NCBI GenBank assembly: GCA_003574885.1
Contig: PJFC01000003.1
Coordinates: forward strand, 248,001 to 312,000
Reading direction: 5' to 3'
DNA length: 64,000 nt
Source of the DNA: Geobacter sp.
Lineage (GTDB): Bacteria; Desulfobacterota; Desulfuromonadia; Geobacterales; Geobacteraceae
Made by a program: the position numbers and the translations under genes
Part shown: positions 1-45,996 of the stretch, piece by piece
Position numbering within the stretch: the stretch's first letter is position 1
Layout: every line of letters starts with the position of its first letter
Notes under the pieces: model-generated
What the model saw: only the letters and a program-made list of their open reading frames with translations
The model's database searches: none
Told to the model about the DNA's origin: nothing

Positions 1-493
1 CGGGCTCCGTAACTGGTGTTTGTACAGGGGAAGTTGTTTTTTCTCTCGACTGTGCGGGAAATTTCACAACCAGCTTGTTTTTGTCGGCTGGGTCAACACC
101 AACGGTAAAATCAACATCTTTTACAAGTGTTATTTCGACACGAGTCAGGTACCCACCACTGAATACATGTTTCGTGGCATCAATCCGTTTGATATCTCCT
201 GCATTGACATCAAGATATTGAAAGTTGCCAGGCTCAGTATCTGCCAGATCAATGACTGCTTTTGCTGGATCTGTTGTCTTGTAGAACGTGAATGTACCTG
301 GATGTGAAACCGAGATATCAACCTGGGAGGCATCTGGTGCCACACTCACGGACTGAATAGTCACGGGCTGAGCACCATCGGATGATTTATCATCCGTCAG
401 GTTAACCCTCTGTTGTGCACAACCGGCGCCGAGCGTCAACATGAGCAGTACGGCAATTTTATTAAGGCAAACCCGGGTTGAATTCATTCTCAT
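1..493 (-). CDS. pilQ: PilQ, type IV pilus secretin (N-terminal part, cut by the window edge)
   Basis: PilQ forms the outer-membrane channel through which the pilus leaves the cell. Only the first 164 codons are present; the rest lies beyond position 1. The start ATG at 493 follows GGAGAG with 6 bases between; an in-frame ATG at 487 is less well placed. The N-terminus has a hydrophobic signal ending in LGAGC, a lipobox, so this copy is probably lipid-modified at Cys25. Residues from about 45 on (VTIQSVSVAPDASQVDISVS) look like an AMIN domain, the peptidoglycan-binding module usual in PilQ. It is the last gene of the pilM-N-O-P-Q run, 12 bases after pilP. The identity rests on this context plus the AMIN-like start; the secretin domain itself is not visible. 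Confidence 0.88.
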   Translation of the reverse strand, partial: MRMNSTRVCLNKIAVLLMLTLGAGCAQQRVNLTDDKSSDGAQPVTIQSVSVAPDASQVDISVSHPGTFTFYKTTDPAKAVIDLADTEPGNFQYLDVNAGDIKRIDATKHVFSGGYLTRVEITLVKDVDFTVGVDPADKNKLVVKFPAQSREKTTSPVQTPVTEP

Positions 494-505
494 CTGGAAC
501 TCTCC

Positions 506-1060
506 TTACCGTTTTGGGGACAGGGTAAGCTTGATAACCCTTTTTTTCGTATGACCATCTTCGTCGCGGTACTGCTCGACAATTTCAACAGCGTTATTGC
601 TGATTTTAGTTATCCGTCCATTATTGTTGCCAATCAGCATGCCCCGCTTTACAACATACCCCCTACCATTCGGATCAACAATAAGGGCTTTGCTTTCATT
701 GATGCCTGCAACAATGCCCGATAGTTTGAATTTACTTGCATCAATAGCCTGAATCGGCAACTGGTTCAGATTCAAGGGGAGCCCCCCGCCAGTTTTGCCT
801 GCACGCGGAACCTCCGTAGCAAGTAGCGGCTTAAAAGGGTCCTTCTTTTTCGAGAAATCCAATGCCGATATATTGGGCCCTTGAGTGTGCACAGACGATT
901 GCTGGGCCTGTACCGGCTTCTTCTGGGTTTGCGCTACCACCGCCTGTGGCTTCTGAGCCTGAGGTGGAGACGTAACCCCCTTATTCTTACAACCGGGGAG
1001 CGCCGCGATCAGGACCAAAGCAAACAGAACAAATCGTCTATTTATTGCCCGTTTTAACAT
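506..1060 (-). CDS. pilP: PilP, type IV pilus inner-membrane lipoprotein
   Basis: PilP is the lipoprotein that links the PilN/PilO dimer to the PilQ secretin across the periplasm. The product is 184 residues. It starts with a signal peptide ending LPGC (lipobox, Cys near residue 22), then a Gln/Pro-rich linker, then a small beta domain (from about residue 65, with the typical KKDPFKPLL opening) ending in RVIKLTLSPKR. I chose the ATG at 1060 because it sits immediately before the signal peptide and has AAAAGGG 5 bases upstream. The reading frame stays open further upstream and overlaps pilO, which is shadow sequence. Two further in-frame ATGs at 1078 and 1096 are created by an 18-bp tandem repeat inside the pilO tail. 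The start overlaps the end of pilO by 23 bp, which suggests translational coupling. Confidence 0.9.
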   Translation of the reverse strand: MLKRAINRRFVLFALVLIAALPGCKNKGVTSPPQAQKPQAVVAQTQKKPVQAQQSSVHTQGPNISALDFSKKKDPFKPLLATEVPRAGKTGGGLPLNLNQLPIQAIDASKFKLSGIVAGINESKALIVDPNGRGYVVKRGMLIGNNNGRITKISNNAVEIVEQYRDEDGHTKKRVIKLTLSPKR

Positions 1061-1676
1061 CCTTACCCTTTTTATCATCCTTGCCTTTTTTATCATCCTT
1101 AATCTCTTTCTTGTCCAGAAAACGGAATGTTGTAGCAAGACAGTTGATGGTATAGACTGTTTTCGCACCAACGTTTTTCGGGCTCGTAAATTCAACGTTG
1201 CTAATATTGACAATCCTTGGGAGGTTTCCAACCGCAACGAAAAAATTACCTACATTGGCATACGTGCCGGAAACCTTTATATCGACAGGTACAACTGAAT
1301 AGAAATCCTTCGGTTCCTCAGGTTTAGGCTTGAACATAAGAAAGTCAAGCCCGGCACCTTTCCCTGAACTTGTAATACTGGTGAGTAGCGTCGGAATTTC
1401 CTTCTGGTTAGGTAATTCGGTCAATGCATTTTCGAGCTCTTTGTTCAACTGGGCATATTCCAGCTTGAAGCGAGGAAGATTGTCAGCAATTTTCTTGCTT
1501 TCCGTCAACTGCGCACGAAGACCATCCAACTTCTTCTGAAGCTCTTTTTGCTGTTTGAGCTTCGGCTGTATCAACCCGAAAAACATACCTGCACCTATCA
1601 GCGCGACAATGAGCCCCAAAAGAGCTGCTTTCTGTTTGTTCGGGAGCTTAAGTAATTTTTCTACACGTGGGTCCAT
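1038..1676 (-). CDS. pilO: PilO, type IV pilus alignment subcomplex protein
   Basis: PilO pairs with PilN in the inner membrane and carries the periplasmic contact to PilP. The product is 212 residues: a short cytoplasmic head (MDPRVEKLLKLPNKQK), one membrane helix at about residues 18-38, a coiled-coil segment rich in Lys, Leu and Glu at about 40-90, and a ferredoxin-like periplasmic domain to about residue 190. The last 20 or so residues are an unusual Lys/Asp-rich tail with a repeated DDKKGK unit, encoded by an 18-bp tandem repeat in which the pilP start lies. Size and layout fit the family; the charged tail is the odd part. Confidence 0.92.
   Translation of the reverse strand: MDPRVEKLLKLPNKQKAALLGLIVALIGAGMFFGLIQPKLKQQKELQKKLDGLRAQLTESKKIADNLPRFKLEYAQLNKELENALTELPNQKEIPTLLTSITSSGKGAGLDFLMFKPKPEEPKDFYSVVPVDIKVSGTYANVGNFFVAVGNLPRIVNISNVEFTSPKNVGAKTVYTINCLATTFRFLDKKEIKDDKKGKDDKKGKDVKTGNK
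1061..1096 (-). repeat. 18-bp tandem repeat, two units, in the pilO tail / pilP leader
   Basis: Two 18-bp units (1061-1078 and 1079-1096) match at 16 of 18 positions. In the pilO frame they encode DDKKGK twice. In the pilP frame each unit ends in an AAGG followed by ATG, so three evenly spaced candidate starts (1096, 1078, 1060) arise. Confidence 0.85.
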
Positions 1677-1741: not shown

Positions 1742-2338
1742 CTATTTCTTCTGCGAAGCTTTGGGCGCAACCTTGGTTCCCTTAGGTTCTTCCTTAACGA
1801 AACCTTTGACCATACAGCTAATGTCAAATTTTTTCACTTTGACATTAGAGATTTCCTTCTGTTCAGAAACAACCAGTTCCACATCGGAGAAAAGGTCAGA
1901 CTTTTGCAGATTCTGGAGAAAAGTAGCAATCAAGTCTTCGTTATAGGCAAAGCCAGATATTGTTATCTTGCCTGAAACTTCCTTGTAATTCGTCAACCAC
2001 AGCTTGTCCGGAGTCAAATCGCTCAAACTGACCAACCTGGCGGCAGGGCCGGTCTTCTCTTTACGCAATGTATTGAGAACATCAAGTTTTTTCTTAACCT
2101 CATCCTGAAGCTTTTTTATATTGTCGATTTCGCCTATTTTGGTCTTCAATTGCTGCAACTCGGTCTCAGACCTCGTAATTTCAGCTTTTATGCCGCTTAC
2201 CTTTGCAAACGTAACCGTGTAAAACGCCAATCCGGCAGCAATAACTGCTGCAACGGCAACAATCAGTATCATGATCTGCTGCTTGGCTGTTTCCTTCTTT
2301 TTCGTAGCCCTGATAGGCAATAAGTTGATTCTGGTCAT
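1742..2338 (-). CDS. pilN: PilN, type IV pilus inner-membrane protein
   Basis: PilN docks PilM to the inner membrane and dimerises with PilO. The product is 198 residues. The N-terminus MTRINLLPIR holds the INLLP motif that fits into the PilM groove. One membrane helix follows at about residues 22-45, then a coiled coil (about 50-90) and a periplasmic alpha/beta domain. The start ATG shares four bases with the pilM stop (ATGA, 2335-2338), a sign of coupled translation. A 65-bp gap separates it from pilO and holds only the pilO ribosome site. The C-terminal tail is Lys/Ala/Pro rich. Confidence 0.94.
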   Translation of the reverse strand: MTRINLLPIRATKKKETAKQQIMILIVAVAAVIAAGLAFYTVTFAKVSGIKAEITRSETELQQLKTKIGEIDNIKKLQDEVKKKLDVLNTLRKEKTGPAARLVSLSDLTPDKLWLTNYKEVSGKITISGFAYNEDLIATFLQNLQKSDLFSDVELVVSEQKEISNVKVKKFDISCMVKGFVKEEPKGTKVAPKASQKK

Positions 2339-3390
2339 TTGTCGCCTACCCTCCTTGACGCCAACCCCAAAGCTACGGTCACAAGAGGTCCGATCTCGCG
2401 CAGGTAGTCGACATCAAAGTCCTTGTCCGCATATTTTACCTTGGCAAATGGATTCATGGTCTCGACCGGTAATCCCAACCTCTGGCCAACAGCCTCTGAC
2501 AGCATGGAGGTCTTCGCACCTCCACCGCTAAGGTAGACCTTTGTTATTCTTCCATCGCCAGCAGTAGTATTGTAAAAATCCAAAGAGCGCCGAATTTCCA
2601 TTGCCAGTGTCTCATTGACGCGGCTGATAATGCCCTGGAGGCGTTCTTTGTCAGGGCAGGCACCGGAAACTTTGAATCGTTCGGCCTCTTCACCGCTCAC
2701 ACTGAACTGTTTCTGGATTTCTTCAGTGTAAATATTGCCACCCATCTGAACATCACGTGTGAAGAGCGAGATACCATCCTTGACAATATTGAGGTTCATG
2801 ATGCTTGCCCCGATATTTATCAGGGCGACAACATCTTCGTCCCCCATGTTGTAGTTGATCTCAAACGCATTCTGCATTGCAAAGGAATCGACGTCAACTA
2901 CCGCAAGCTTGACGCCTGTCTCATTGAACACCGTCTGGTAATCGTTAATGATATCCTTCTTGCTGGCCACCAGTAAAACATTCATTCTGGTAGGATCGTG
3001 CTCATCGGGGGGGAGAAGCTGAAAGTCGATATTCACATCATTGATGTCAAAGGGAATATACTGCTCTGCCTCCCAGTGAATCTGGTCATCAAGTTCCTCA
3101 ACCGGCATGGCAGGTAGTGAAATTTTACGAATGATAACCGAATTGCCTGAGACAGAACAGACAGCCTCGCACCCCTTGCCTATCTTAAGACTGGCAAGAA
3201 GGTTTTTAACTGCCTCTACAATGGAAGAACTGTCCATCATGGTATTATCGACAATAGCTTCGGGAGGAAGGGGGACGATCCCGGCATTCTGAAGTACATA
3301 GGCGCCCTTAAGCTCTTTAAGCTGAATGAGCTTGATGGAACTGGAACCGATGTCAATACCGATTATTTCTTTCTTTTTAGAGAATAGCAT
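2335..3390 (-). CDS. pilM: PilM, actin-like type IV pilus assembly ATPase-fold protein
   Basis: PilM is the cytoplasmic actin-like ring protein of the pilus machine. It binds ATP and the N-terminus of PilN and passes signals from the motor to the periplasmic parts. The product is 351 residues, usual for the family. IIGIDIGSSSIKLIQL near residues 9-24 is the first phosphate-binding strand of the actin/FtsA fold; VVALINIGASIMNLNIV (about 190) and YLSGGGAKTSMLSEAV (about 285) are the second phosphate and adenosine motifs. It heads the pilMNOPQ run and lies 20 bp downstream of a small HTH gene. Confidence 0.95.
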   Translation of the reverse strand: MLFSKKKEIIGIDIGSSSIKLIQLKELKGAYVLQNAGIVPLPPEAIVDNTMMDSSSIVEAVKNLLASLKIGKGCEAVCSVSGNSVIIRKISLPAMPVEELDDQIHWEAEQYIPFDINDVNIDFQLLPPDEHDPTRMNVLLVASKKDIINDYQTVFNETGVKLAVVDVDSFAMQNAFEINYNMGDEDVVALINIGASIMNLNIVKDGISLFTRDVQMGGNIYTEEIQKQFSVSGEEAERFKVSGACPDKERLQGIISRVNETLAMEIRRSLDFYNTTAGDGRITKVYLSGGGAKTSMLSEAVGQRLGLPVETMNPFAKVKYADKDFDVDYLREIGPLVTVALGLASRRVGDK

Positions 3391-3410: not shown

Positions 3411-3611
3411 TTAGTCCTGAAACACCTTGTCCTTCTCGGCCAAAGAATACCCCAGAGCAAGAATTATCTTTCGCTTTGTTTCCATACGACAGGGCATTCC
3501 GCTCTCTATCCTGTCAATGGTAACCGGCGAAACACCAGCAAGACGAGCCAGCTCAGCCTTGCTTATCATTTTCTGCTCGCGCATCTTTTTGACGTTGTTT
3601 TTGCTTTTCAT
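3411..3611 (-). CDS. Small XRE-family helix-turn-helix protein
   Basis: A 66-residue protein that is almost nothing but a Cro/C1-type DNA-binding domain: MREQKMISKAELARLAGVSPVTIDRIESG supplies the recognition helices (about residues 17-37), and METKRKIILALGYSL the closing helix. There is no sensing or dimerisation domain. It is the first gene downstream of the riboswitch leader and lies 20 bp upstream of pilM on the same strand, so it is probably cotranscribed with pilMNOPQ. A local regulatory role in pilus expression is inferred from position only. The HTH call is firm; the target is unknown. Confidence 0.8.
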   Translation of the reverse strand: MKSKNNVKKMREQKMISKAELARLAGVSPVTIDRIESGMPCRMETKRKIILALGYSLAEKDKVFQD

Positions 3612-3769
3612 GCAAAGATACCCACTCTGAGTAATTTACATGGAATTTACAATAAACAACACAAATGTCAACAAATTTATTATAATTATATCAAATTATT
3701 TATAGCGATACACAACCAACTGATATTATTTAAGTATTTGGCTGAATTTCAACTGAGACTTAAGTTTTC

Positions 3770-3811
3770 AAAAAAAAAGGTTGCCCAATATCGGATGATA
3801 TTTCGGCAACC
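3770..3811 (-). terminator. Riboswitch expression platform: intrinsic terminator
   Basis: On the minus strand GGTTGCC...GGCAACC closes a stem that extends inward through AATATC/GATATT with loop ATCC, followed at once by a run of nine T (A on the plus strand at 3770-3778). The 5' arm of this stem is the 3' end of the aptamer (GGGTTGCCGAAATATC). Aptamer closure and terminator formation therefore compete for the same bases, which predicts a switch that turns transcription on when ligand is bound. Confidence 0.9.
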
Positions 3812-3882
3812 CGGCTGTCTCCAAGAGACCCAATAGGCTTTCCGCCCCATCCTCGCGGATGGTTTAGTATTATCGTTACCAT
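3793..3882 (-). promoter_or_regulatory. GEMM-I riboswitch aptamer, probably 3',3'-cGAMP-responsive type
   Basis: Minus-strand sequence follows the GEMM-I consensus: AAACCATCC-GCGA-GGATGG (P2 stem with a GNRA tetraloop), then GGGCGGAAAGCC, a P3 arm with the loop receptor side, and ACAGCCGGGTTGCCGA. Aligned by hand to the well-studied Vc2 aptamer, the position equal to G20 is A here (plus-strand T at 3868), and the A47 equivalent is kept. A20 is the known mark of the Geobacter GEMM-Ib class that prefers cyclic AMP-GMP over cyclic di-GMP. It lies in the leader of the XRE-pilMNOPQ transcript, just ahead of a terminator that shares its 3' bases. The class is sure; the ligand is inferred from one base. 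Confidence 0.9.
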
Positions 3883-45873: not shown

Positions 45874-45910
45874 AAAAAAGAGCCCTTCCGCGGACAGGCG
45901 GAAAGGCTCT
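45874..45910 (-). terminator. Attenuator terminator of the pyr operon
   Basis: Minus strand AGAGCCTTTCCGC-(6)-GCGGAAGGGCTCT then TTTTT: a 13-bp stem with one mismatch and a U run. It lies between the PyrR site and pyrR, so it is the conditional terminator. Confidence 0.88.
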
Positions 45911-45941
45911 CAGAACACAATTCTGGTAACTGTTTTCGACA

Positions 45942-45963
45942 CCTTTGATAACCTCACGGGGTT
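45942..45963 (-). promoter_or_regulatory. PyrR RNA-binding site
   Basis: Minus strand AACCCCGTGAGGTTATCAAAGG fits the PyrR binding-loop consensus, with the GUGAGGUU-N3-AAGG core. AACC/GGTT form the stem. It lies about 30 bases upstream of the attenuator terminator. Confidence 0.85.
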
Positions 45964-45996
45964 AAATTAAAAGGCAGTATGGGAAGGATTTGGAGG

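Follow-up and report, generated by a model that had tools for sequence, protein, structure and literature searches.

Which second messenger is sensed by the RNA that precedes the pilMNOPQ genes of this Geobacter genome, and does all expression of these genes pass through it? The initial annotation of the window, by which we mean the whole stretch of 64,000 nucleotides analysed here, had read a full GEMM-I core on the minus strand, assigned it to the cGAMP sensors from an A at the position of Vc2 G20, and placed the pilMNOPQ leader under its control. A cmscan of the whole window against all families returned RF01051 (c-di-GMP-I, or GEMM-I) at 3878..3802 (-) with 49.1 bits and E = 1.4e-6. The score lies above the gathering score of 35 bits and the match spans the full model (1-87 of 87), as expected of a GEMM-I member. 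The core is present as described, with P2 and its GCGA loop, GGAAAGCC at 3843..3836 and CCGGGTTGCCGA at 3814..3803, all on the minus strand. The same scan found a PyrR binding site (RF00515) at 45874-45978 (-), whose 58.7 bits exceed the cut-off of 54. The parts of the riboswitch are as follows.

3802..3880, minus strand: GEMM-I / GEMM-Ib aptamer including the 5' strand of P1 (RF01051 match and orthologues from our own model, R1)
3880..3877 and 3875..3874, minus strand: 5' strand of P1, GGUA and CG
3868, minus strand: A at Vc2 position 20, A14 of the cGAMP riboswitch (covariance-model alignment and other aptamers of the genome)
3841..3867, minus strand: P2 (covariance-model alignment and reading of the sequence)
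3806, then 3805, minus strand: equivalent of C92 (C75 of the cGAMP riboswitch), then the first P1 base of the 3' strand (numbering of PMC6274999 placed on the sequence)
3770..3812, minus strand: intrinsic terminator, hairpin GGGUUGCC...GGCAACCU at 3812..3778 and U tract at 3778..3770 (fold)

The interval first proposed, 3793-3882, covers the aptamer and about half of the terminator hairpin; the U tract ends at 3770.

In the covariance-model alignment, model position 11 corresponds to Vc2 G20 and is an A (3868) in the window, in agreement with the earlier hand alignment. Positions 21-22 are C and U, and positions 45-47 are G, G and A. The lower pairs of P2 are C21-G46 (3867/3842) and U22-G45 (3866/3843), the stem 3862..3857/3852..3847 is closed by the GCGA tetraloop at 3856..3853 (3862..3847 for stem and loop together), and the intercalating A47 lies at 3841 (-). 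In cGAMP-riboswitch numbering, C3867-G3842, A3841 and C3806 are C15-G40, A41 and C75 (PMC6274999), so that the remaining pocket of the GEMM-Ib (3',3'-cGAMP) subclass accompanies the A at Vc2 position 20. As read from its bases, the combination A20/C21-G46/A47/C92 is identical to the contacts of the published cGAMP-bound structure (PMC6274999), and the apparent fit to the cGAMP class rests on this set of pocket bases rather than on a single base. Vc2 of Vibrio cholerae (RF01051) shares the aptamer fold, A47 and C92 with the window element but has G20 and G21-C46 where the window has A20 and C21-G46.

The assignment of P1 requires some care. Thermodynamic folds of 82-102 nt transcripts favour a pairing of GGUAAC (3880..3875) with GUUGCC (3810..3805). 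We rejected this helix as P1 because most GEMM-Ib (A20) aptamers of the genome keep GAUA..CG against CG...UAUC, and because the ligand-binding C would be occupied. In the clade of the window, the outer part of P1 is GGUA with UAUC, with one pair now G-U when compared by eye.

Immediately downstream, the terminator arms GGGUUGCC (3812..3805) and GGCAACCU (3785..3778) are followed by nine consecutive T (3778..3770). The terminator stretch has a fold z of -3.1 to -3.3, with none of 200 shuffles as stable, and in folding of growing transcripts the terminator overtakes at about 106-110 nt. Its 5' arm includes C92 and the first base of the P1 3' strand; the bound aptamer and the terminator are therefore mutually exclusive, as in the Geobacter pilM-type ON switch. 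Since the terminator shares its sequence with the 3' part of the aptamer, ligand should turn transcription ON. The element should be a cGAMP-sensing GEMM-Ib transcriptional ON switch. Once cGAMP is bound, P1 would form and the GGGUUGCC strand would be kept in the aptamer, no terminator would arise, and RNA polymerase would continue into the HTH-pilMNOPQ operon. Without ligand, the GGGUUGCC strand would pair with GGCAACC and transcription would end at the U tract. Vc2, in contrast to this terminator-bearing element, has been described as a translational OFF switch (PMC9262584).

A cGAMP riboswitch before Geobacter pilus-assembly genes is already known, and the window adds one more species. The pilM riboswitch of G. 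metallireducens is turned ON by cGAMP, and its terminator takes C75 into a base pair (PMC9262584). It is of the same class and has the same operon, cGAMP ligand, C75-using terminator and direction of switching, although it belongs to another species and is likened here by its published description rather than by aligned sequence. A GEMM-Ib element of G. sulfurreducens has the same gene setting, upstream of the regulator and pilMNOP (PMC6456294). There the system is shown in vivo, whereas that of the window is deduced from sequence: deletion of gacA lowers the regulator and pilMNOP 2-3 fold and several other targets 10-16 fold (PMC6456294).

The genome contains 23 RF01051 matches. The A20-C21-U22 / G45-G46-A47 pocket of the window is found in 14, G20 in eight (L001-L006, L014, L016) and A20 with G21-C46 in the remaining one (L013). 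The last, at 1501-1577 of its locus (genome C10:348094-348170), has the combination of a Vc2 G20A mutant and precedes an ORF in which a CxxCH motif occurs close to the start; the usual rule gives no guide to which ligand this aptamer prefers. The reverse mixture, G20 with C21-G46, occurs in the same genome in L014 and L016 (1501-1579, minus strand of each locus). In a separate leader (L009), an A20 (cGAMP-type) aptamer with a terminator is followed by a G20 (c-di-GMP-type) aptamer and this in turn by a hairpin; the two aptamers lie at 1501-1576 and 1698-1787 (genome C10:101927-102002 and 102124-102213). The hairpin can pair TACCTC with the ribosome-binding GGAGGTA ahead of a GTG start, and all elements and their order are kept in two further species of the genus (L152, L153). 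This leader looks like a two-messenger gate, with transcription controlled by cGAMP and translation by c-di-GMP, and the aptamer pair is absent from the table of two-ligand tandem riboswitches in PMC9481103.

A likely source of the ligand is encoded in the same genome. Among GGDEF domains with a readable motif, one protein (GHLVGS, L033), of REC + GGDEF architecture, combines Ser at the specificity Asp position with GGDEY; one other GGDEF domain of the genome has Thr at this position. Ser at the specificity site marks Hypr GGDEF enzymes that make cGAMP (PMC6456294). The best PDB match of the GGDEF domain of the Ser protein, at 249 bits against 145 bits for the next, is 6d9m, a crystal construct of the GGDEF domain of G. 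metallireducens GacA (GmGacA), in which Ser aligns with Ser. On the strength of the Ser, the GGDEY motif and this match, a cGAMP source is likely present, namely the GacA-type candidate synthase, which would supply the riboswitch and whose presence is a supporting feature of the GEMM-Ib subclass.

From the whole pocket, the Hypr GGDEF of the genome and the published work on the pilM riboswitch and the gacA mutant (PMC9262584, PMC6456294), we infer that the ligand in this species is 3',3'-cGAMP. A20 is a strong but imperfect mark of cGAMP selectivity, and the earlier class assignment, which had drawn on that one base, stands with the pocket as a whole; A20 alone is not full proof because G. sulfurreducens has an A20-class riboswitch, that of omcST, for which responses to both cGAMP and c-di-GMP are reported (PMC6456294). 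That report would allow the window aptamer to sense c-di-GMP, or both ligands about equally, despite A20, and c-di-GMP is very likely present in the cell, as canonical-looking GGDEF domains are the majority in the genome. We nevertheless consider this very unlikely, given that the pocket, C21-G46 included, matches the published cGAMP class (PMC6274999), that work on the orthologous pilM RNA took cGAMP as the cognate ligand (PMC9262584), and that the regulator and pilMNOP respond to loss of gacA (PMC6456294). A decayed or non-functional aptamer is scarcely credible here. Loss does occur, since one orthologue (L079, 1997-2049) is a remnant in which the 5' half of the aptamer is gone and the P3 hairpin and terminator are kept. 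In the window and three relatives from the genus, however, aptamer and terminator are kept while the sequence on either side is not, and paired positions covary among orthologues. DNA resembling the aptamer-terminator stretch occurs in all 48 family genomes searched, and our own model R1, applied to the surroundings of 80 pilM-like genes from named genomes, located 16 intact aptamers upstream of pilM in addition to the one remnant. The ACU...GGA pocket is present in 16 of 16 of these intact orthologues from other genomes, P2 is paired in 100% of cells with two covarying pairs, and a terminator with a U tract again follows the aptamer. At most other pilM loci, those of the Geomonas group included, the riboswitch was not found within the stretch examined per locus.

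The reading of the RNA as a cGAMP switch leaves the question of how much of the operon it governs, for which the downstream features are needed.

3644..3671, minus strand: promoter-like block, TTGACA (3671..3666), 16 bases, TAAATT (3649..3644) (alignment of four species of the genus)
3411..3611, minus strand: HTH_3 (Cro/C1-type) regulator of 66 aa, first gene past the riboswitch (PF01381, E 1.6e-10)
2335..3390, minus strand: pilM (PF11104, E 1.5e-80)
1742..2338, minus strand: pilN (PF05137)
1038..1676, minus strand: pilO (PF04350)
506..1237, minus strand: pilP (PF04351); the true start is probably inside this ORF, which overlaps pilO
1..493, minus strand: 5' part of pilQ (secretin); the name follows from position and the initial annotation

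The ORF in the pilQ position, of 868 aa, extends beyond the window (L154 388..2994 (-), corresponding to window 493 onwards), and minor-pilin genes of the PilW/PilY1 kind lie upstream. Several long plus-strand ORFs (1680-1946 and others) opposite pilO, pilN and other pil genes are most likely chance frames opposite coding sequence. The riboswitch does precede the operon, as originally proposed, but the first gene is that of the 66-aa regulator and not pilM.

Alignment of four species of the genus reveals two conserved islands separated by divergent sequence: the aptamer with its terminator and, immediately ahead of the HTH gene, a block of ~90 bases. The promoter-like sequence sits in the latter, between the terminator and the HTH gene. 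TTGAC[A/T] occurs 50-83 bases before the HTH start in all 68 HTH-pilM loci in which a position could be assigned to the HTH gene, 16 of 16 with the riboswitch and 52 of 52 without it, against ~3 of 68 expected overall from mononucleotide shuffles; the loci are related, and the count is therefore not a probability. The proximal -10 agrees with TATAAT at only 4 of 6 positions. This conservation suggests promoter activity. Because the block is kept with or without the riboswitch, the operon probably carries a promoter of its own, with the riboswitch probably acting as a distal, additional upstream input. Ahead of the aptamer, a search for a promoter gave only weak matches and no clear candidate; a sequence ATGGAA...TTGCATA upstream of the riboswitch is conserved within the genus. 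The block before the HTH gene also contains TGTAAATT twice, 11 bases apart (about 3655-3630 (-)), and an AT-rich near-palindrome, TATAATTATA, that precedes TTGACA; either is a possible operator of the HTH protein.

These observations bear on whether the riboswitch could be the sole control, with all HTH-pilMNOPQ transcription running through it. No other gene lies between the terminator and the operon, as such an arrangement would have it. The promoter-like block past the terminator, with its motif at every HTH-pilM locus, and the modest cost of the gacA deletion (PMC6456294) both argue the other way, and we regard sole control as unlikely. The modest effect is as expected if a second promoter exists. 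The proposal that cGAMP controls the pil operon thus stands for cGAMP as an input, though probably not the only one. We favour, with some reservation, a two-storey arrangement in which a conserved promoter before the HTH gene is joined by a patchy upstream cGAMP riboswitch that adds transcription only at high cGAMP, and in which the HTH protein may target its own promoter region. The promoter 3' of the terminator would give ligand-independent transcription of the operon, and the riboswitch would be an addition to expression rather than its only gate. Taken as a whole, the locus is very probably explained by a cGAMP-sensing GEMM-Ib ON switch with a GacA-type source of ligand and a probable second promoter that would supply ligand-independent transcription.

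A known member of the cGAMP regulon, at pilMNOPQ, is thus present in a further species together with the likely synthase. What the locus adds lies between the riboswitch and the operon: a conserved promoter-like block, which would account for pilMNOP answering the loss of cGAMP only 2-3 fold.
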